From: Arabidopsis thaliana
Taxonomy: Eukaryota; Streptophyta; Magnoliopsida; Brassicales; Brassicaceae
Reading direction: 5' to 3'
Assembly (NCBI RefSeq): GCF_000001735.4
Contig: NC_003074.8
Coordinates: 17,243,261 to 17,307,260 of the forward strand
Length of the DNA stretch: 64,000 nt
Below the pieces are notes generated by a model. That model saw only the letters and a list, made by a program, of their open reading frames with translations. It made no database searches and was not told where the DNA came from. Below are positions 6,801 through 58,017 of this stretch, one piece after another (the first letter of the stretch is position 1; every line of letters starts with the position of its first letter). A program made the translations under genes and the position numbers.

Positions 6801-7750
6801 TTGACCTATTTAAACATTTATTACTTTAGGTTATGAATAATCCTGACGCAATTCTTGCTGATTAGTCTTGACGCAATTGTACGTTGCTATTGATTTTAAA
6901 CGAATACAGCACAAAAGAAGGCAATCGCGTGGACGAAAGAGGAGCCGATACATACAATTGCATACATCTATTTGTATACTATATTTGCTTTCTATTGGAT
7001 AATTCACCCTAACTATTAAGAGTACATTTAGTCACAATATCTAAATTAAATCTATAAATGTGAATATGCACATAGAGTTTTCACAAGTGGTCATATTTTA
7101 AGGATAATATTTGATACAGTTCTTAATTTCTTTGGTACATTTTTTGTTACCTCTCTAGAAAGGTTAATTAATTAGATACATCGCCTGCAAAAGTACTTTT
7201 AAGAAAAAATATTCGCGTGGAGAATATTTCGTTCGTTCATGTAAGGTCAAATGATGAACCTCTTACCCATGATTAGGCTGCCATAATTAATAAACCGAAT
7301 TCAGAATATACATTCCTTACTTCCCATCATTCTGAATTGCCCAAATTATACTCATTTCTAGTCATAATAAAAAAAAAATTAACTTCTAGTGGTTAGTCAA
7401 TCTTTTCTTTTGTCAAGAGAATAAATATCAAGTCAAAGAAAATTCTTTCTATTTAATATTTTTCTCTATATTCATGAACAAACAATACAAGTAAAAGAAA
7501 AATAAAAGATGATGCAAGGATTAGTAGAACAAGAAACGGTAGCAAATTAAACGGTGCATTCAAAAACCTATTAATATGGAAAGTACATTATACTGTCATT
7601 AATATATAAGAATAATTTGAGAAACAAATCTTAAAGGAGTTTGATGAGGACTTTGATTACGTTCTATGTACATACAGTATCTCTCCCTATAATAATCCTT
7701 TCATTCTCACAATCTTGTAAAATTTGATTATAACCAAATCAATCAAAAAA
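6801..7750. other. Promoter region of the first subtilase
   Basis: From about 7105 onward this DNA is alignable with about 12405-13077, upstream of the second subtilase, with shared stretches such as TTTGATACAGTTCTTA and GAGAATATTTCGTTC. The upstream region was therefore copied with the gene. A TATA-like CTATAATAAT lies near 7690. Nothing coding seen. Confidence 0.6.
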
Positions 7751-10700
7751 ATGACAAAACCTGCTGTCTCCTATTGTCTCCTCTCATGTATCTTTGCCTT
7801 GCTTGTTGTGAGTTTCGCTTCAGCAGACAAAGATGATCAAGACAAACAGGTAATTGCACAAATCCTTCTTCGTTATTTGATTATTATAATCATATCATGG
7901 TTCTAATTATATTACTAATGACTAACCATAACTATGATGATGATACTTGTAGGAGTATATAGTATACATGGGTGCACTTCCTGCTCGTGTTGACTACATG
8001 CCTATGTCCCATCACACTAGTATTCTTCAAGATGTCACCGGAGAGAGGTGCACTGAATTTATTCAATTTTATTGTTTAGTGTTAATGTGATTATTTGTAT
8101 ATGGTTTCATGTCTATCGATCAAAGTCTAACAAATGTATTTCTTATTTGTAGTTCGATCGAGGATCGTTTGGTTAGGAATTATAAAAGGAGTTTCAACGG
8201 ATTCGCAGCCCGGCTAACCAAATCCGAAAGAGAGATACTAGCAAGTAAGTGAACATAAATGGATTACGACCCGAAAGTTTTCAAAAATAATAATCAAAAC
8301 TCAAATTAGTTTTCTTCTCTATGAAAAAACTTTATTAACTCAATGTGTTGCTATTTCTTAATATCTAATTTCTTAGGTATGGACGAAGTTGTGTCTGTGT
8401 TTCCTAACAAGAAACTGAAGCTCCAAACAACAACGTCATGGAATTTCATGGGCCTCAAGGAAAGCAAACGTACAAAGCGAAATACTATCATAGAGAGTGA
8501 TACAATCATCGGTGTCATCGACAGTGGAATCTATCCGGAATCTGATAGTTTTAGTGGCAAAGGCTTTGGTCCTCCTCCTAAAAAATGGAAAGGTGTTTGC
8601 AAAGGCGGCAAAAACTTCACTTGGAACAAGTATAAAACTCTTAAATTTGATCATACAATTAAATTGTGTAAGGATTTTTCAATTGCTTAGTTATAATGAA
8701 TGTGGATGATTTGTTTGTTTTATAGCAAGCTTATTGGAGCACGGTACTACACCCCCAAACTAGAGGGGTTTCCTGAGTCAGCGAGGGACTACATGGGACA
8801 TGGATCGCACACAGCATCCACGGCTGCTGGAAATGCTGTGAAGCATGTGAGCTTTTACGGCCTCGGCAATGGAACCGCAAGAGGTGGCGTTCCAGCTGCA
8901 AGAATAGCGGTTTATAAAGTATGTGACCCTGGCGTCGATGGGTGCACAACTGACGGAATTCTAGCGGCATTTGATGATGCCATAGCGGATAAGGTGGACA
9001 TCATTACCATATCCATTGGTGGTGATAATAGTTCGCCTTTTGAGGAGGACCCTATCGCGATCGGGGCTTTCCATGCCATGGCCAAGGGAATCCTCATAGT
9101 GAATTCCGCAGGAAACAGTGGTCCAGAACCTAGCACGGTCGCGAGTATTGCGCCGTGGATGTTCACTGTTGCTGCTAGTAATACTAACCGTGCGTTTGTC
9201 ACTAAAGTTGTTCTCGGAAACGGCAAGACAGTTGTGGTAAAGTACCAAGGGACAAATCTTTGTTCCTCTCTTACGACAACATATTATCATACATATCTTG
9301 TCCTCTTTTAACATTACTGCTTGTTGCTAAACAGGGAAGATCGGTAAATTCGTTCGATCTTAACGGAAAGAAGTACCCTCTAGTATACGGGAAATCAGCT
9401 TCAAGTAGTTGTGGTGCTGCTTCCGCCGGGTAACTTCCATCACAAGAAACATTATTTTGCATCTATTATGCTCTTCACATGAGGGTTTAAACGGTGATTT
9501 TCGTTTTCAGGTTTTGCTCACCAGGGTGCCTAGATAGTAAACGTGTGAAAGGAAAGATTGTTTTATGTGATTCCCCGCAAAATCCCGATGAAGCTCAAGC
9601 TATGGGAGCCATTGCATCTATTGTTAGGAGCCACCGTACAGACGTGGCAAGTATCTTCTCTTTTCCAGTCTCTGTTCTATTGGAAGACGACTATAACACT
9701 GTTCTCTCGTATATGAACTCCACCAAGTAATATCCATAACTCTGTCTTATTATATTTCTTACAAATACTCCATCCTAAAGCTCAAACTTTTGTTTGCTTT
9801 GGCCAGGAATCCCAAAGCGGCTGTTCTGAAAAGTGAGACAATCTTTAACCAGAGAGCTCCCGTCGTGGCTTCCTACTTTTCTCGTGGCCCAAACACAATC
9901 ATTCCTGACATATTGAAGGTATATATAGAAAAGGAGAAAAATTAAATTACTCTGTAAATTTGACTGAAAGTGAATATGTATTGCAGCCGGATATAACGGC
10001 ACCAGGATCAGAGATCGTAGCTGCTTATTCTCCTGATGCCCCACCAAGCATATCAGATACAAGACGTGTAAAGTACTCCGTTGATACCGGAACTTCAATG
10101 TCTTGTCCGCATGTTGCTGGTGTAGCTGCCTACTTAAAATCGTTTCACCCACGCTGGTCTCCCTCCATGATCCAATCAGCCATCATGACTACCGGTATGC
10201 AAAATCATATCCACTCTGTTTTCTGAATATTCTCATCATTTTTTTTACTCACAACATAACTTTCTTGTATTGCAAGAAAACTTATAATACTCTGTTTTTT
10301 GGTGTTTTTTGTAGCTTGGCCAATGAATGCATCTACTTCTCCATTTAACGAGTTGGCCGAGTTTGCTTACGGAGCTGGCCATGTCGATCCCATAACTGCA
10401 ATTCATCCTGGACTAGTCTATGAAGCTAATAAATCCGACCACATCGCCTTTCTCTGCGGCTTGAACTACACTGCAAAGAACTTAAGACTCATCTCCGGTG
10501 ATAGCAGCAGTTGCACAAAAGAACAGACTAAATCGCTACCCCGAAACTTAAACTATCCTTCGATGACTGCTCAAGTATCGGCGGCAAAACCATTCAAAGT
10601 GATTTTCCGTAGAACAGTCACTAACGTCGGTAGGCCTAACGCTACATACAAAGCAAAGGTAGTCGGTTCTAAACTCAAAGTCAAGGTTGTTCCGGCAGTC

Positions 10701-30624: not shown

Positions 30625-31440
30625 ATTATCTCCGTGAAGACTACTCCTATAAACATATATATTGACTCTTTCAAATTTTGGTGGGTATGCTGTGTTCGTC
30701 ATAGCTATGACTATCCTATTTTGTTTTTCATGTTTTTTGACATCATTTAGTTAAACGAGACCCTAAAATTTATTTGGATGATGCTTGGAAAAAGCTATAA
30801 GAACCATCTTCCTCGATGAGCCACAAAATTTTAACTGCAATGAGCTTATCAGCGTATGTTCTTGTATCTACAATTGCTTATTCTTCTTTCTTCCTGAATG
30901 TTTAATTTTCTTGACTCTTCTTGCATCATCCAGGCTGTTCAGAAAGCATGGTGTTCATGAAAGTCATCAGGAGAAGCTCTTTACAAACTGATCTTGGAGG
31001 AGTGTGAGATATATATCTCTGCAGCCATACGATCTTTATAGAATCGCAATGTCATGATGATCCCTCTGTTTTCCTGCCATTCATGGAGAATTGTTGGCGC
31101 AAGTTGCAGTTTCTCTGTGACATTGGTGGCCAAGGTCAGACAGTTGGTAAAATCATTGTGGGACTTGGGTGAGGAGCTTTTCCCCAAGAATCTCTGACAA
31201 AGATTTGCTACGATTTTCCCAAGCAATCTATTAGGTAAGGAGCTTTTCCCCAAGCATCTCTGAAGAAATCTATTGACAAGATTTGCCTCTCTTGTTTCCT
31301 AGAAGACGCTTTGTTGGAGAAAACGGCCAAACAATGTTTTAAGGATCTTGATTTGCCTAGGGAGGAATAGAAACAGAGTCTCTTGACCTTGAGCATATTG
31401 AAAAGATTCGATTCGGCTAGGGCGTTTATATTATGTCTGA
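30625..31440 (+). pseudogene. Decayed copy of the CUL4-like gene
   Basis: Aligns with the cullin-like gene at 35376-36915. GTGAAGACTACTCCT at 30632 corresponds to that gene's start (its ATG is GTG here). At about 30735-30850 follows exon 2 (IRTIFLDEPQNFNCNELIS). Exon 3 begins at about 30931 after CATCCAG, with ALQKAWCS-like remains, [11 protein letters not shown], then a shift and stop, and a shrunken [10 protein letters not shown] stretch. Exon 4 is gone; the last exon resumes at about 31260 (KSIDKICLSC, LEKTAKQCFKDLDLP). Many frame breaks and deletions. With the following kinase tail it forms one duplicated block. No function expected. Confidence 0.85.
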
Positions 31441-31672
31441 CCTTTTCTTATGATTGTTAGAAACGACTTAATTATGTACTCTACATGGAAGTTCTAGTTG
31501 CTATATTAAAAAAAAAATTGCAGAAATTCTAAGGCGATGTGTGTTTGTATGTTGACGTAGCAAAAATATGCAAGACGTAGTAGATGTTTTATACACTAGC
31601 ATAACCTATTTGTATGTAACATCTTGTATGGTTATAGATTTGAACATGGTTCAATTCATATGAAACAGTTGG

Positions 31673-32080
31673 TCTTAAGATTGTGGTACATATGTTGAGC
31701 CTTGTTCTTTGGAAGGAAGCCTTGTAGCTATGGTCCGTAGTTCGTCCACGATCTCAGTGAAGCTTGGCCTCTCTGATGGTTCTGCAGACCAGCATCTCTC
31801 CATCAGCAATTTCCAGTCCATGTCACAGAAGTCGGGAATTTGTGGCGGTAGCGTATTACTAACTATACCACCTGATTTCACTTTTTGGTTAGAATCGAAA
31901 ACAAAGGATACACGCCTGCACACAAGAATTATGGATCAAGGGTTTCACCTATATGATCGCTCCATAGTGCAAGTCGGCGTAAGGTTCTTCACCGGTGAAA
32001 AGTTCCCTGTAGCATCCAGAATTCCAGATAAAGGTATCAGATAGAGGGGATAATAACATAATAGAGACAAATAACCAAGC
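31673..32080 (-). pseudogene. Duplicated 3' end of the PB1/Raf-like kinase
   Basis: On the minus strand 31675-31870 repeats the last exon of the kinase at 37170-37366 with high identity ([53 protein letters not shown]). A shortened copy of the preceding exon lies at about 31935-32030 and intron sequence runs to about 32080. The kinase body is absent. It came with the decayed cullin copy as one block and keeps the same convergent arrangement. Confidence 0.88.
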
Positions 32081-35000
32081 TGATTATGATTTTTATACTA
32101 ATCACCATCTTTACAGAATTTCTCAAATTCCATCTTTGATTCTCTTTTTACCTATATTCAACTTTATAAATTAGAAAAATATTACAGCATAACAGATGGA
32201 TTTTAAAATTGAATTATTTATTCATAAACAACTTAAAAATGTTCATAACAAAGCTATATCGTTTTTTAATTTCTTGAGTTCCCCAACTTCTTTTGGTGTG
32301 TTAGTTTAGTAAACTACGTAAATACCATTTTTACTTTATTCTATGTTTTTACTGTGATTATAAATGTTATACATATTGTTTAAATCTATATATATACATA
32401 TAAAAAGTACGACAAACAAAAGTACATTATATATAACATATTTATTTAAATAAATTTTTGAAGTCTGAACATATTAACTTAAACTAGATTTTAACCCGCG
32501 GTATACCGCGGGACGATTTATTTTTAAAAATAATATATATTAAAACTTGCAAATTTTATTTTTACAAAATATTTATATTTTACAGTTTATAATTGTTATT
32601 AAGTAACGCTATACCACGAATTCCTGAGACAATTGTTAAGAAACTGAAGTTTTGACCCCTATTAAAAAAGCATATTAATAATATTTTAAAATTTTATAAA
32701 TATTGATTCAAATACATCCACCATATAACCCAATTCCAAAATAAAACACGTTATGTAATTTTTTTACCCGTCCAGTGATTTTTTTTTAAAGTAGTAATTT
32801 TTAAAATTTAAGAATTATTTTTTATATATAAAAGTTTTGCAAATTGTATCATTCTCTAATACATTTATATTTTATAGTTTAATTTTATATATAGTAACAT
32901 TATACATACCACATAACATTTTTGGTTTTATATAATTTTTTCTAAATTAGGATGATTTGATATGTTTAATATTAGTGGTCTTAAAAAATAATAAATTAAA
33001 GATTTAACCCATATTGAAACGGTGGATTAATTATATTTTACTTTTTTATTAATGTTGATTCAAAACCCTGTCCCTCCAAATCCGTCTTGCCAAAAAGTCA
33101 TTTATTTTATTAATATTAATTTTATTAATGATATGACTCTGAATTATAATCTAAACATTTTAACTAATAACATAGGAGTGCACCATATTTACTTAATAGG
33201 GGAATGTACCATATGACCCGAATGCATTTTTATCCAAATCCACCAAAAAAGTCTTGCAAAAATACTATAGAGATAAGAAACGATAGTCGGTTTTGATAGA
33301 TATAAGATTAGCAAATATATTAGTTAGCTTAAATTAGTTAAAGAATACAAATTAAAAAAGTATATTACAATTTATTCAAATATAGTATCAAAACTTATAT
33401 AACACAGAGATTTGATAAATTTTTAATTGTTGAATACTTTTTTTTGTGCTAATTTTTATGTGATTAAGATTTAATTGATTTCATATATAAAATATTAAAT
33501 TGACTTATTTGTTTATAATTTGATAACAGATAGATATTTGAATATTCAGTATATTTTGCTTCAGTTTAGGAAATCTTTGATGACCCGTCTTTAGATCCAA
33601 TAAGCTCTATAATCTAGAGATTAATCTGCAGTATACCGCAGGTAGGCTTATATTTTAGTTAAACTAAAAACTTTTATTGTAAAGATGATTTAAAAATATA
33701 TGATATTATTTTATTTGATTTTAAATGTATAGTAAACTGTGAGTTGTATATGTTTTGTTGATATTATCTATATTGTTTAGTGTTTAAGATTATACACTTG
33801 TAGTTTGATTGTTAATTTAAGAGTTTTACATGTAGTACACCATCTTATATTAATATCGATCTAAACCCGTCAATTCTATAATTTTCCAGCTTGTATTAAA
33901 AATTGAATCACATCTAATATGTTATTAACTATTGTAGTATATAAAATTATAAATTTTCAATATAATATGTATGAAATTAAATATAAATATTTTAAATTTA
34001 TGTCCCGTTACTCAGTAGAAAGTTTTCTTAAATCTATTTTTCACCCGTTATAATATTATTTCATGTATTGAACAGTTTATATTCGTTTTTAAAAATTCAA
34101 ATTATGGCATATGCAAAAAAACTCTAATTATTTTTTTATAATGATGATATTATTTTTCCGTAAAAATAGAATCCTATAAACATGAGAAGTGAACTATAAT
34201 AATTAATAAAAAATTAATATGATAATTTAGATACCAAATATAATTTGTTGATTTTAATTGGTTACTTTTTTGGAAATTAATAATGTATTTCGTTTTTTTA
34301 ATTAAATTAAATTAATTAAAATTTAGATATCAAATCTTATATGTTGATTTTAATTGGCTATTATTTTTGGAAATTAATAATGTATTTCGTTTTTTAATTA
34401 ATTTCATTAATTAAATTAGTATTTGACTTTTTAATCCTTAAAGAGATAAATTAATTTACTCTTTAAAATTTTATTTCTAATGGCATACCTATATAATTAC
34501 TTACAAAAATTAAGGTTACATTTAAAATGTACTTCCCAAATAATATAGTAGGATATTTTCTACTTTTTCTTTATTTTTAGTTTCTCGTCGTGCGAATTGT
34601 CACGCACTAAAGCACATTACATTGTTACTACCTGAACTGAAATTATCGGACTCAGGTGGGACTTGTCATTAGTTTATCGTTTAAGCCCAAAATAGTGCAT
34701 TCTCTTTATATTTAGTCTCTATTGTTCAAAGCCTACCAATAATTTAAAAGTAAAGTATTTTTAGTCCAACAATATTTGCATCAAGTACTTTTATTCCAAC
34801 AAAAACAATCTCCCATTTCGCTCGCCGCTACTACATGAATCGCTTTTTATTTTCGTCTAGTTTCACTTCTGTTCAAAAGGTTAATCTATTTGAGAATCTC
34901 AAGATATCTACGCTTATTTTCAACTCCTATTCCTCAAATTAGTCATTCTCAAAGATATCTCATGATTATTGTCTGAATGAATAATTGTAGGAGTTAAATC

Positions 35001-36392: not shown

Positions 36393-36915
36393 GGAGAAGA
36401 AAAATTGCAGACACGGACTCTACTTCTTTAAAGAGTTTGAGGAATCGTTGATGGAAGCTGTTGAGAGAATACTTCTCAAGGATCATGTTTCTGTCATTCT
36501 TGAAAAGGTAGCTCTCTTTTCCCTTTGATATCTTTGATTTCTTGTGAACAATAGCTTTCTAAGCACTTGTGTGTTTGTAGGGTTTTGTCAAGTTTATGGA
36601 TGAGAGAAGCCATGATGACCTTAGTAGGATGTACTATATGTTCTCTGAGGCTGACTTACTTGGGCATTTGAACGACGCTTTGAACTCTTACATCCGGCAA
36701 ACCGGGCAGAAGATCTTAAAGGAAGACTCATTATCTTTGGAGGAGTTGAAGAACTCTGTTGACAAGATTTGCCTTACTTGTTTCTCAGAAGATGCTTCGT
36801 TGGAGAAGACAGCCAAACAATGTTTTAAGGATCTTGGTTTGGCTTGGGAGGAAACAAAAACAGAGTCTCTTGACCTTGACAATGATTGGAAAGATTCCAC
36901 AATTTGGCTAGGGTG
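36393..36915 (+). pseudogene. Out-of-frame continuation of the cullin-like gene
   Basis: Cullin sequence continues past the truncating shift: 36387-36507 encodes [18 protein letters not shown] and EAVERILLKDHVSVILEK, a donor follows, and after an acceptor at 36579-36580 (TTTGTAG) the last exon reads GFVKFMDERSHDDLSRMYYMF, LLGHLNDALNSYIRQTGQKIL, then LKNSVDKICLTCFSEDASLE to a stop at 36913-36915. The first two blocks match CUL4. The final ~55 residues are not cullin in any way I recognise. This part is shared with the decayed copy at 31260-31430, so it predates the duplication. Confidence 0.75.
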
Positions 36916-37169
36916 ATTATATTATTATGTCTGACCTCTTGTTATGATTGTTATAAAAGACTTCATCGTGTACTCGTCATGGAAGTTGTGGTTGCTATAA
37001 AACAAATAAAATTGCGGAGATTCTGAGGCGATGTGTGTTTATATGTTGACGCAGCGAAAAAAATGCAAGAAGTAGTAGATGATTTATAGACTAGCATTAC
37101 CTATTTGCATGTAACATCTTGTATGGTTATAGATTTGAACATGGTTCAATTCATATGAAACAGTTAGTC

Positions 37170-40100
37170 TTAAGATTGTGGTCCCTGTGTTGAGCCTTGT
37201 TCTTTGGAAGGAAGCTTTGTAGCCATGGTCCGTAGTTCGTTCACGATCTCAGTGAAGCTTGGCCTCTCTGATGGTTCTGCAGACCAACATCTCTCCATCA
37301 GCAATTTCCAGTCCATGTCACAAAAGTCGGGAATCTGCGGCCGTAGCGTATTACTAACTATACCACCTGATTTCAATTTTTGGTTAGAATAGAAAATAAA
37401 GCATACAAGCCCGCACACAAGAATTATGGATCAAGGGTTTCACCTATGATCGCTCCATAGTGCAAGTCGGCGTAAGGTTCTTCACCGGTGAAAAGTTCCC
37501 AGAGGACAATTCCGAATGAAAACACATCGACCTGTAGCATCCAGATTAAGGTATCAGATAGAGGGGATAATAACATAATAGAGACAAATAACCAAGCTGA
37601 TAAGAGCAGCTTAGTTTAGAAACCTTCTCAGAAACAAGGCTACTGGTTCCATTTAGAAGCTCGGGTGCCATCCATGGAAGTGTTCCCCGAACACCACCTG
37701 ATATTAATGTCTGACATTTCACCTTTGAGAGACCCAAATCCCCAACCTGAAATAATCAAAAATGTCTATTAAGAACTTTAAATGAGAGGTAAACAAATTT
37801 GCATTACAATTTCATAATGTACAATTCCTCCTCTAACACCAAAGAGCACCACTCTATTCAAAACTAATGCTAAACCTTATGTATGTCCATATTTCTCTAC
37901 AGAAAAAATCTAGACATTTATCTCAAAATGCTTACAATCCTCAATACCATGACTTGATTCTCTACCGTTGTCCCTTATGATCATGAATCCCACATTCCCA
38001 TGTTAGAGTTGGATGCAGACAGATAAAAATAAACAAAAACTATTACTTAGGAAAAACAGACAGAAAAATAAAACTCAAGAGTAAGTTGACCTTGCAAATT
38101 GGGCGATGAGGATCCCTGAGATTGACGAGCAGGTTGTCACTTTTAAGATCAAAGTGTACTATCTTCTTTCCATGCAAATACTCCATCCCAAAAGCAATGT
38201 CCATAGCGATCAGTTGACGCTTGCACCTATCAAAATTCCTGTAAAATAAACCATAACAATCAAATGGCGTTATTCTAAGCATGAATCTGAAGTGTCAACG
38301 TAGCACTGAGGAATGTATAAAAAATACGATACCTAACATTCTTCTGCAACGCATTTCGTAAAGAACCATTGACCATATACTCTGTAACTGTTGCCACAGA
38401 ACCTCCAGGTGAATCCAGCACAACCCCATAAAAAGCAACGACGTTAGGATGGTGCAAGCCAGCTAGGTTCTGTGCCTCATTCCAAAAGTCATCGATCTGA
38501 TAATTTTTGCATATAAGATAGATGTCATTATGAACTATTCAACATATGTCTAAATATTTTTTTAGGTTATGCATCATCAGCTGTACAGAGACAAACCATT
38601 CGTTCTTGCTCAGATGGTTTGCCAGCAAAACATCGATCATTGATCCTTTTGATTGCAACATCAGTGCCTCGCCATTTCCCATGATAAACTGTGCCAAATG
38701 TGCCAGATCCTAGTTCTCGCAATTCCTCAAGGTCGCTGTCCTTTATAATCTAATACGCAAAACATATGATTATACTCATAAGATAATGATCATAAGTGAA
38801 TCAAGAACAAGATGTCAAACCTGCAACTGATCCAGCGAATCAGAACCAGAATATCCGAAATTCAGTCTTTCTAGAAGTTGGTTCCTGATATCCTGAGAAA
38901 CAATAACAATAATTCTGAGGCAATATGAAATCTAAAGAAATAATGACAAGAATAGTGAACAGTATGCTAAGGACCTTGAAGTGTGTAGACTGCTGTTTCA
39001 TTTCATCATTACGTGAAACTTCTCCTTTCGAATTAAAAGCATACTCATCCACCTTAATTGGAGGTTCATGATATGAAGGTGTGCTTGACTGTAACACAGA
39101 AGCGGCGACTCCTTCAGCAACATTCTGAAGTTCTTGTTTGATGTGCTCCTCCTCGGAGCCTTTCAGAGAGAACCAAAGACCAATCAACAGATCATTCTCA
39201 AGGATAACTACCAAAAAAAGTAGTAATGGAGTCATGTATAACATGTAAGTCAATCTCACCTTTCGAAGAATTAAGTAGATCAGGTTTGACATCCTCGTTT
39301 GAGTTAGTTTGCAAATTCCATGGGTCCTGGTTACTAAAAAGTGATTTTGATGATTCTTTGTGGTCTGCACCACCAACACTAGATGACAAGGATGATGGTA
39401 AATTAGCAGCATCAGGATTTGATGATAAGGATGATGGTAAGTTTGCAGCATCAAATGTAGATTCAACAACGTCATAAGCGGGATTGCTGGACTGCGCTTC
39501 CGCTGAATCGAACTGCTGACCTCCAACCAATGATTGTAGATACAAACCAGGATTGCCTAATAAGGGAGACTGTGTTGGCACACATGATTCCTTAGGCTGA
39601 GATTCATGGCCTGGAAGAACTACTCTTGTTAGCCTCTTAGCTGAATCAGTGTGATCTATGTTTGGACTTACTGGAGACTGACCAGAGGTGTCATGTAAGA
39701 ACATATTCTTCCTTGCCATTTGTTGAGAACTGGTACCCATAATATCTTCTTTCCCAATTTTGTCAACTGGTGAGATGAAATTCTGACAATTGCTATATAT
39801 TTCAGGAGCATGTATGTTAACATTATCCACCAATCCACTTAGTTCTCGGCATTGTGCATATGCTACTGAAGGGTCTACGGGATGTTGCTGCTGCCTAGTT
39901 ACTTGAACTTTTATCGGAACATCTCTTACTATCTCATTGACAAAAGGTTCAGTAGTCTCGACCTGAGCAGTGGCAAGATTGGCGTTATGTAAAGTATCTC
40001 TTTCTTGATGATTTGAATGATTGAGGAAGCTTTGTTGACCCGTAAACTTATCCGTTTGTTGGATTCTCATGATATCATCTGGACGAGAAGCATAGAAAGC

Positions 40101-42899: not shown

Positions 42900-44772
42900 A
42901 TGGATGGAGAGGTTACTTCTTGGATTAGGAGAGCAAATTTCTCTCATACTGTTTGTTATCGTATGATTACGCCGAGTTTAGAATCTATGCCTTTTACTGT
43001 AAACCAAGAGAAGAGTTCTGGATTGAAAAGAATGACTTTGAGTTCACCATCTGATTTGAAATCACTTGTAGGAATTTGTCAGAGTACGCAGCAGCTGACT
43101 GGTTTGAGTTGTGGTAGTGTTGTTGGTACTGAAGTGCAGAGGAATCCAGTTACTAATAAGAAGAGATCTGTTTCTCCGTTGCCTCATATGGCTCTTTCTG
43201 ATGCTTTTATCGAAGCAAAGTCTGATATTAAGAGGTTTTCTACTCCACATCCTAGAAGAGTGGAACCAGAGAAGGGAATGAAGGCCAAGTCGTCGTCCCG
43301 CAAAGATTCTTCTGAGAAAAAATCAGTTAATCTACGGTCCCTGTCTCACTCGGGTCCTATTAGGGATCTTAGTACGCAGAAAGTTAAAGAGAGGGGAAAG
43401 AGCAAGATAGATAAGAAGTCTTCAAAGTCTGTTGACTATAGAGGTTCTAAAGTAAGTTCTGCAGGAGTGCTTGAAGAATGCCTCATTGATGTGTCTAAGT
43501 TGTCTTATGGGGATAGGTTTGCTCACGGGAAATATAGCCAGATTTATCATGGTGAATATGAAGGCAAAGCTGTTGCTCTGAAGATTATCACAGCGCCTGA
43601 GGATAGTGACGACATATTCTTGGGAGCTCGTTTAGAAAAAGAGTTTATCGTGGAAGCCACTCTTTTATCTCGACTAAGCCATCCAAATGTCGTTAAGGTG
43701 AGTTTATATCATGTTATATTATGTTGGTTAGGTTGTATCAAATATGAATGATGCCTTTGAAAATTAACATTACATCTTTCAACTCTGTTTGAAAATTATG
43801 ATTATGGTTTGTTTGACTTTTTTCCTCTGATTGATGTGTCCTGAAACAGTTTGTTGGAGTGAATACTGGAAACTGTATCATCACAGAGTATGTACCTCGA
43901 GGGTCTTTAAGATCATATCTGCACAAGCTCGAGCAGAAATCCCTTCCTTTGGAACAGCTAATCGATTTTGGTCTGGATATTGCTAAAGGAATGGAATATA
44001 TTCACTCAAGAGAGATAGTTCATCAGGATCTGAAGCCAGAAAACGTGTTGATCGACAATGACTTTCACTTGAAGATTGCTGACTTTGGCATAGCGTGCGA
44101 GGAGGAGTACTGTGATGTTTTGGGGGATAACATAGGAACTTATAGGTGGATGGCACCTGAAGTTTTAAAACGGATACCACATGGACGGAAGTGCGATGTT
44201 TATAGTTTTGGACTTCTTTTATGGGAAATGGTAGCTGGAGCACTTCCATATGAGGAGATGAAATTTGCTGAACAAATTGCCTACGCAGTTATATACAAGG
44301 TAAATCATTCTGCATCTCCTCCTTATTTCATGATTGTGATCTAGTTATATACAAGGTAAATCATTCTGCATCTCCTCCTTATTTCATGATTGTGATCTTG
44401 CATAGATCTGACTGAGTTAGATCATTATTGTTCAGTTGTTATTAAACATTTCATTGTTTCGATATTGGCCAGAAAATTAGGCCAGTTATACCGACGGATT
44501 GTCCAGCGGCCATGAAAGAGCTGATCGAGCGATGTTGGTCATCGCAAACAGACAAGAGACCGGAATTCTGGCAGATTGTCAAAGTGTTGGAACATTTCAA
44601 GAAGTCTCTAACAAGCGAAGGAAAACTTAATCTTTTACCTAGCCAGATCTGTCCAGAACTAAAGAAATGTCCTAAATTCTGGATTCATATATTCGGATCA
44701 TTCCACCACCACAGCAGCGGTGGCGGCAGCAGCAGCAACAACTCAGCCTTACCTAAGCCTAAATTCGCTTGA
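42900..44772 (+). CDS. RAF43: Raf-like protein kinase (C-group)
   Basis: Cytosolic Ser/Thr/Tyr kinase of the Raf-like family. Three exons, 42900-43697, 43850-44299 and 44473-44772, give 515 aa from the first ATG; Met22 or Met30 are possible alternative starts. The N-terminal ~190 residues are basic and Ser/Lys-rich. The kinase domain starts near 200: FAHGKYSQIYHG (loose P-loop, normal for the group), Lys228 in VALKI, HQDLKPEN (324-331; the usual Arg of HRD is Gln, so a non-RD kinase), DFG (344-346), GTYRWMAPEVL, and a C-terminal His/Ser/Gly-rich tail. The exon 2 donor is duplicated in a 56-bp tandem repeat (44287-44398): splicing from the second copy would read through an in-frame TAG at 44342-44344. 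I read it as AT3G46930, and recall the name RAF43. Confidence 0.92.
44287..44398 (+). repeat. Perfect 56-bp tandem duplication of a splice donor
   Basis: 44287-44342 and 44343-44398 are identical: AGTTATATACAAGGTAAATC at the start of each, TTTCATGATTGTGATCT at the end. Each copy holds the last 13 bases of exon 2 and the donor AAG|GTAAAT. Confidence 0.97.
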
Positions 44773-55890: not shown

Positions 55891-58017
55891 CTAGATTTTA
55901 ACCCGCGGTATACCGCGGGATGATTTATTTTTTAAAAGTAATATATATTAAAACTTGCAAATTTTATTTTTATAAAATATTTCTATTTTTACAGTTTATA
56001 ATTATTATTAAGTATTTATATATATTAATTGTTATTAAAAATAATAAATTAAAGATTTAACCCGTATTGAAACGGTGGATTAATTATATTTTACTTTTTA
56101 TTAATGTTGATTCAAAAACCCGTCCTTCCAAATCCGTCTTGCCAAAAAGCCATTTATTTTATTAATATTAATTTTATTTATGATATGACTTTGAATTATA
56201 ATCTAAACATTTTAGCTAATAACATAGGAGTGCACCATATTTATTTAATAGGGGAATGTACCATATGACCCGAATGCACTTTTACCCAAATCCACCAAAA
56301 AAGTCTTGCAAAACTACTTTAGACCCGAATGTACCATATTTTTTTTGTGCGAATTTTTATGTGATTAAGATTTAATTGATTTTGTATATAAAATATTAAA
56401 TTGTTTTACGAACTTATTTGTTTATAATTTGGTAACAGATAGATATTTGAATATTCAGTATATTTTGCTTCAGTTTAGGAAATCTTTGATGACCCGTCTT
56501 TAAATCCAATAAGCCCTATAATTAAAAGATGAATATTGTCGTTAAATGATTTTGGTAATCTTAATGATGTCATTAAAAGATTTTGTTTTTGATTAAATTT
56601 TTCTAATGGCATTATCATGTAATTAATTACAAAAATTAAGGTTACATTTAAAATGTACTTCCCAAATAATATAGTAGGACGATATGCACTTTTATACAAA
56701 TCCACCAAAAAAGTCTTGCAAATATATTATAGAGATAAGAAACGATAGTCGGTTTTGATAGGTATAAGATTAGCAAATATATTAGTTCGCTTAAATTAGT
56801 TAAAGAATACAAATTGAAAAGGTATATTACACTTTATTCGAATATAGTATCAAAAGTTATATAGAGATTTGATAATTTTTTAATTGTTGAATACTTTTTT
56901 TTTGTGCTAATTTTATGTGATTAAGATTTAGTTGATTTCGTATATAAAATATTAAATTGTTTTACGAACTTATTTGTTTATAATTAGGTAACAGATAGAT
57001 ATTTGAATATTCAGTATATTTTGCTTCAGTTTAGGAAATCTTTGATGACTTGTCTTTAGATCCAATAAGCCCTGTAATCTAAATATTAACCTGCAGTATA
57101 CCGCAGGTAGGCTTATATTTTAGTTAAACTAAAAACTTTTATTGTAAAGATGATTTAAAAATATATGATATTATTTTATTTGATTTTAAATGTATAGTAA
57201 ACTGTGAGTTGTATATGTTTTGTTGATATTATCTATATTATTTAGTGTTTAAGATTATACACTTGTAGTTTGATTATTAATTTAAGAGTTTCACCTGTAG
57301 TATACCATCTTGTATTAATATCGATCTAAACCCGTCAATTCTAGGATTTTCCAGCTTGTATTAAAAATTAAATCACATCTACTATGTTATTAATTATTGT
57401 AGTATATAAGATTATAAATTTTCAATATAATATGTATGAAATTGAATATAAATATTTCAAATTATGACATGTTACTCAGTAGAAAGTTTTCTTAAATCTA
57501 TTTTTCACCCGTTATAATATTTTTTCATGTATTGAACAGTTTATATTCGTTTTTAAAAATTCAAATTATGGCATATGCGAAAAAACTCTAATTATTTTTC
57601 TATAATGATGATATTATTTTTCGGCAAAAATGGAATCATATAAAGATGAGAAGTGAACTATAATAATTAATAAAAAATTAATATGATAATTTAGATATCA
57701 AATCTAATTTGTTGATTTTAATTGGTTACTTTTTTGGGAATTAATAATGTATTTCGTTTATCTAATTAAATTAAATTAATAAAAATTTAGATATCAAATC
57801 TTATATGTTGATTTTGATTGGTTATTATTTTTGGAAATTAATAATGTATTTCGTTTTTAATTAAATTTAATTAATTAAATTAGTATTTGACTTTTTAATC
57901 CTCAAAGAGATAAATTAATTTACTCTTTAAATTTTTATTTCTAATGGCATACCTATGCAATTACTTACAAAAATTAAGGTTACATTTAAAATGTACTTCC
58001 CAAATAATATAGTAGGA
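55891..58017 (-). mobile_element. Composite non-autonomous Helitron, second copy
   Basis: Same termini as the 32484-34553 element: minus-strand A|TCCTACTATATTATTTGGG start at 58017 and palindrome CCCGCGGTATACCGCGGG plus CTAG|T end at 55891; 2127 bp, no coding frame. Two internal ends are visible. At 56679 a second 5' end (TCCTACTATATTATTTGGG on minus) makes 55891-56679 a complete-looking 789-bp element. At about 57079 a second 3' end (palindrome CCTGCAGTATACCGCAGG) makes 57079-58017 a 939-bp one. A ~250-base stretch (TTTGCTTCAGTTTAGGAAAT...) occurs twice, at about 56340-56520 and 56880-57070. High identity to the first copy suggests that both moved in the not distant past. Confidence 0.85.

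Follow-up and report, generated by a model that had tools for sequence, protein, structure and literature searches.

Short tandem duplications that carry splice signals with them have been described before. In a potato RdRp gene, such a duplication spans an exon-intron boundary on the acceptor side, and the accessible text reports ten base differences between the copies and RNA reads that confirm a new intron (PMC4974935). Introns can also be gained by tandem duplication of a segment containing AGGT, in which both copies offer a possible splice site, and a table in the available part of that work lists 188 events under this mechanism, with Arabidopsis among the species (PMC3443670). At the level of DNA repair, small tandem duplications form by fill-in of complementary overhangs followed by end joining, and overhangs of 43 and 49 bp gave adjacent copies of tens of bp (PMC8355091, in the sections available). 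The introduction of the same paper notes that natural insertions in humans and plants had hinted at such an origin, and it reports that microhomology at the junction was far more frequent in duplications made by the theta pathway than in those from wild-type cells.

A duplication of this known kind is present in the Arabidopsis thaliana gene RAF43, within the 64-kb stretch of DNA that we analysed (C3:17243261-17307260, hereafter the window), where it is probably an ordinary scar of DNA repair. Like the potato case, it is short and crosses an exon-intron boundary, but it lies on the donor side, its copies match perfectly and it leaves the intron count as it was. It shares with AGGT-type intron gain a unit that contains AG|GT and two copies that could each act as a splice site; in RAF43, however, the AGGT served as a donor before it was duplicated, and its copy falls inside an existing intron. 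The RAF43 duplication was not described in the literature searched (mostly non-subscription articles, with titles and abstract openings among the matches listed), and the accessible parts of PMC11718197 and PMC2809761 contain no closer case of a doubled donor.

Tandem Repeats Finder places the array at 44287-44398, with a period of 56, 2.0 copies, 100% matches and 0% indels, and an independent repeat search returned identical coordinates for the pair. Each unit begins with the 13 bases of an exon end, AGTTATATACAAG, followed by the donor AAG|GTAAAT, so that the last exonic base is 44299 for the upstream donor and 44355 for the downstream donor and the two are identical from -13 to +43. The original prediction of a perfect 56-bp tandem duplication, with the exon end and this donor in each copy, is confirmed by these results. 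Its label "exon 2" agrees with our model, in which this is the second coding exon (Table 1), but not with the published count of four exons and three introns. Chance can be rejected as the source of the pair, as about 1e-27 exact adjacent 56-mers are expected in 64 kb if bases are independent. When the window and the retrieved loci were scanned for the unit without gaps, allowing up to 16 mismatches at places that share a two- or three-base anchor, there were eight hits, all of them the two copies seen through overlapping loci. A genome-wide DNA search with 44200-44480 (119,662,809 bases in 7 contigs, skipping simple repeats and very common words) recovered the locus itself and one paralog. 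As expected, an exact scan with a 26-base piece of the unit found no match in the prokaryote collection and none in the viral collection.

Table 1. Coordinates of the RAF43 features discussed in the text (positions in the window).
Feature	Position	Strand	Remarks
First coding exon of RAF43	42900..43697	+	ATG at 42900; donor AAG|GTGAGT; open frame; forward primer
Second coding exon	43850..44299	+	Ends at the upstream donor; intron position common to two related genes
Copy 1 of the 56-bp unit	44287..44342	+	13 exon bases, then 43 intron bases from the donor GTAAAT
Intron from the upstream donor	44300..44472	+	173 nt
TAG across the copy junction	44342..44344	+	In frame after downstream-donor splicing; last base 11 nt before the exon end
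Copy 2 of the 56-bp unit	44343..44398	+	All intronic if the upstream donor is used
Intron from the downstream donor	44356-44472	+	117 nt
Last coding exon	44473..44772	+	Stop TGA 44770-44772; reverse primer at 44751

Published Raf43 primers map to both ends of the gene, the forward primer at 42900 and the reverse ORF primer at 44751, and on the strength of this match we identify the gene as RAF43, At3g46930. This mapping, together with the available text of PMC4519275, upholds the identity first proposed from the sequence. A kinase domain, a GTxxWMAPE signature and the mapped primers, the features looked for in RAF43 (a Raf-like MAPKKK of group C), are all present. Joining the three coding exons of Table 1 through the upstream donor gives a 515-aa product whose kinase domain occupies residues 204-455 (PF07714, E 2.8e-59), in agreement with the earlier expectation that this donor yields a full kinase. 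A search of solved structures returned many kinases. The Raf43 ORF was reported, after cloning and sequencing, to encode 475 aa from four exons and three introns, with a clone of 1450 bp (PMC4519275, in the parts available). Our model does not reproduce this length, and the 40 aa by which the published protein is shorter lie before the signature motif.

The first coding exon is open throughout and aligns over its full length with the 525-aa protein of a paralog. The gap of 40 aa between the two models would fit a 120-nt in-frame intron within this exon, for which spacing alone provides six GT-AG candidates; such an intron would point either to a misprediction or to an exitron. As a separate observation, residues 324-326 in the catalytic loop (44021-44029) read HQD in RAF43 and HRD in the paralog.

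The state of this boundary before the duplication can be approached through related genes; of 151 kinase matches in this genome, we examined the intron in the two closest. The nearest relative, on contig C5, shares 73% protein identity over query residues 77-219 and has a corresponding intron that begins at a single donor, AAG|GTAAAA. At the DNA level it is 78% identical to RAF43 over 144 aligned positions of the exon end and intron start, and its intron start continues past the end of the unit into bases resembling those that follow copy 2. A second alignment, of 56 positions at 79%, sets copy 2 and its following bases against this same C5 stretch. The next relative by score, on contig C1, has an 85-nt intron at the corresponding place, again with a single donor. 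The intron itself is not new, as its position is occupied in both of the related genes examined. Because both of these paralogs hold the unit in single copy with a single donor, we take the single copy as ancestral and the doubled donor as derived from it. The 117 nt between the downstream donor and the acceptor are the length expected for the gene before it acquired the extra copy. We also considered whether the start of this intron has been conserved for a function. The paralogous introns are locally more similar (score 41) than any of 1000 shuffles (maximum 27). The pair's other intron, however, also scores above nearly all shuffles (score 32, reached by 2 of 1000, maximum 38), so that both introns appear to retain ancestral similarity and we make no special claim for the duplicated one.

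We consider it likely that the duplication arose by chance during DNA repair and is nearly neutral, with the upstream donor kept and the second donor unused or of minor use. Nicking of the two strands at points some 56 bp apart would have produced a staggered break, and fill-in of both ends followed by joining would have copied the exon end, the donor and the intron start of RAF43. The spliceosome would then have continued with the upstream donor and removed copy 2 as additional intron, which would have grown from 117 to 173 nt; the second donor would be ignored or used at a low level, in the latter case giving a truncated reading frame of 430 aa, and the overall effect would be close to neutral. 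On neither side does a flanking base match the unit end, so the junction has no microhomology, in keeping with a staggered break that was filled in and then end-joined. A 2016 study by Schiml et al. is said, by its title, to concern tandem duplications at adjacent single-strand breaks in plant genomes. The microhomology typical of theta-pathway duplications in the available text of PMC8355091 is absent from the RAF43 junction, and where that work demonstrated the process in mouse cells with Cas9 nickase, the origin at RAF43 is read from the product.

The identity of the two copies sets only a loose limit on their age. With a mutation rate of 7e-9 per site per generation, on which these limits depend, zero differences over 112 sites correspond to a median age of 0.88 million generations and a 95% upper limit of 3.8 million; the 86 intron sites alone give a median of 1.2 million and an upper limit of 5.0 million. 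The split from A. lyrata dates to several million years ago, and the duplication could have any age within the species or could reach back through much of the interval after that split. The view that the event is very recent and perhaps limited to this accession therefore reads too much into the absence of mismatches, as an upper age of about 4-5 million generations does not imply restriction to one accession.

Given the identical sequence from -13 to +43, either donor could be used. In the published protein the signature motif lies at 322-330 of 475 aa, which leaves 145 residues after it (PMC4519275, in the parts available). The upstream-donor product, with GTYRWMAPE at 362-370 of 515, also has 145 residues after the motif, and the downstream-donor product has 60, so the published cloned ORF agrees with use of the upstream donor and the acceptor at 44473. 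A single cloned ORF gives no isoform ratio, and the template and accession of the clone are unstated in the accessible parts of PMC4519275. Between the 50 nt on the exon side and the 50 nt on the intron side, U content rises from 0.26 to 0.44 at the upstream donor and stays at 0.42 at the downstream donor, although the contrast in total AU is small (0.64 to 0.68 over 50 nt). Plants prefer a splice site at a rise in U. Predicted U1 pairing is the same for both duplicated donors (-6.8 kcal/mol), compared with -11.6 for the consensus, -10.2 for the first-intron donor, -6.8 for the paralog donor and -6.0 for the donor of the C1 relative, so both are predicted to be fairly weak, like the donors of the relatives. 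The U step and the published ORF together favour upstream use, with minor downstream use possible; most likely the upstream donor is still the one spliced, and the second donor would be unused or minor.

Splicing from the downstream donor would retain 56 nt and run into the in-frame TAG at the copy junction, ending a 430-aa product with a new 14-residue tail, VNHSASPPYFMIVI. This stop lies after GTYRWMAPE, as anticipated in the proposal that it follows the activation segment, and the PF07714 match is shortened, reaching residue 411 (profile position 216 of 258) where that of the full product reaches 455. The further proposal that the stop marks the transcript for decay is not supported by the usual rule. 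In plants, introns in the 3'UTR induce NMD when they lie at least 50 nt downstream of the stop, and the first 3'UTR intron of SMG7 was called too close to it (PMC3711448, in the parts available). As the TAG ends 11 nt upstream of the last exon junction, we reject intron-based NMD, and the long-3'UTR route alone is left. Long 3'UTRs also trigger plant NMD, with the reporter G-95 not a target and G-600 a target (PMC3711448). The premature stop and the poly(A) site would be separated by no less than 311 nt, to which the normal 3'UTR beyond 44772 is added, a length that probably falls between these two reporters and makes NMD by this route possible.

These properties bear on the alternatives to a near-neutral repair scar. 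One is that both donors compete and that the early-stop transcript from the downstream donor lowers RAF43 output, as a dial set by unproductive splicing. The identity of the donors and their flanks, the in-frame TAG that follows the downstream choice and a 3'UTR long enough that NMD could act through its length are in keeping with this reading, which we nonetheless regard as unlikely, since the stop is too near the last junction for intron-based NMD, the published ORF agrees with upstream splicing, and the main text of PMC4519275, in its accessible portion, has no word beginning with "splic". Alternatively, the downstream donor might give a stable 430-aa kinase that lacks the C-terminal part of its kinase domain and possibly acts as a decoy. 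Its stop escapes the intron-based rule and its PF07714 match is kept for most of the profile, but the match is cut short by the stop. Kinases that lose the end of the C-lobe are usually unstable, and we consider a stable decoy very improbable. Also a long shot is a combined form in which the gene is a natural, perfectly matched test bed for two donors in the reference strain: the identical donors compete, the downstream transcript escapes intron-based NMD, and in accessions with the duplication the truncated kinase adjusts stress signalling by RAF43.

An assembly or cloning artefact of the reference would also account for the perfect identity, and the duplication is seen here in a single assembly. 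However, the Sanger reads from which the reference was presumably built are longer than a 112-bp array, which makes false doubling unlikely. Finally, 44300-44355 begins with GT and ends with AG, as it would if an AGGT duplication had started a new intron that is removed before the regenerated donor is used in a recursive splice. At 56 nt this segment is shorter than the usual plant intron, no clear acceptor tract precedes its terminal AAG, and the final mRNA would equal that from direct use of the upstream donor; we reject this candidate, whose probability is close to nil. Returning to the preferred reading of a repair duplication spliced from the upstream donor, an unused second donor would be a harmless repair scar. 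If both donors were used, the lack of any difference between -13 and +43 would make RAF43 a clean natural test of donor choice in plants when the competing sites are identical.

To place the duplication in context, we counted perfect tandem units of 20-500 bp in 264 kb, comprising the window and 20 regions of 10 kb from contig C1, after dropping units with internal repeats or strong trinucleotide bias. Two such units were found, the 56-bp unit of RAF43, which is the only one in the window, and a 39-bp unit in region L024. Relaxed counts over the same 264 kb gave 4 units at up to 5% mismatch and 14 at up to 15%. In this small and non-random sample (the C1 regions span 0.2-23.2 Mb on a grid without centromere regions, with none at 12.2-17.2 Mb), perfect units are uncommon but not exceptional. 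One unit in the 200 kb outside the window corresponds to a rough rate of about 5 perfect units per Mb. With about 120,000 introns in the genome and units assumed to be 45 bp long, a few tens of units could span a donor by chance genome-wide, within a range from less than 1 to more than 100. The 39-bp pair, at L024:3159-3236, is followed by a partial third copy.

The window holds other, diverged repeats. A dispersed AT-rich repeat occurs at 33043-34553 and 56095-58017, about 23 kb apart; several stretches of the two are 83-95% alike, each main copy holds a 96-bp tandem pair, and part of a third copy lies near 56397. Two direct duplications are also present: 7731-10594 and 13055-15929, spaced about 5.3 kb apart, are 84-95% alike in separate stretches, and 31261-31861 and 36747-37356, at a spacing of about 5.5 kb, are 88-94% alike in two stretches.
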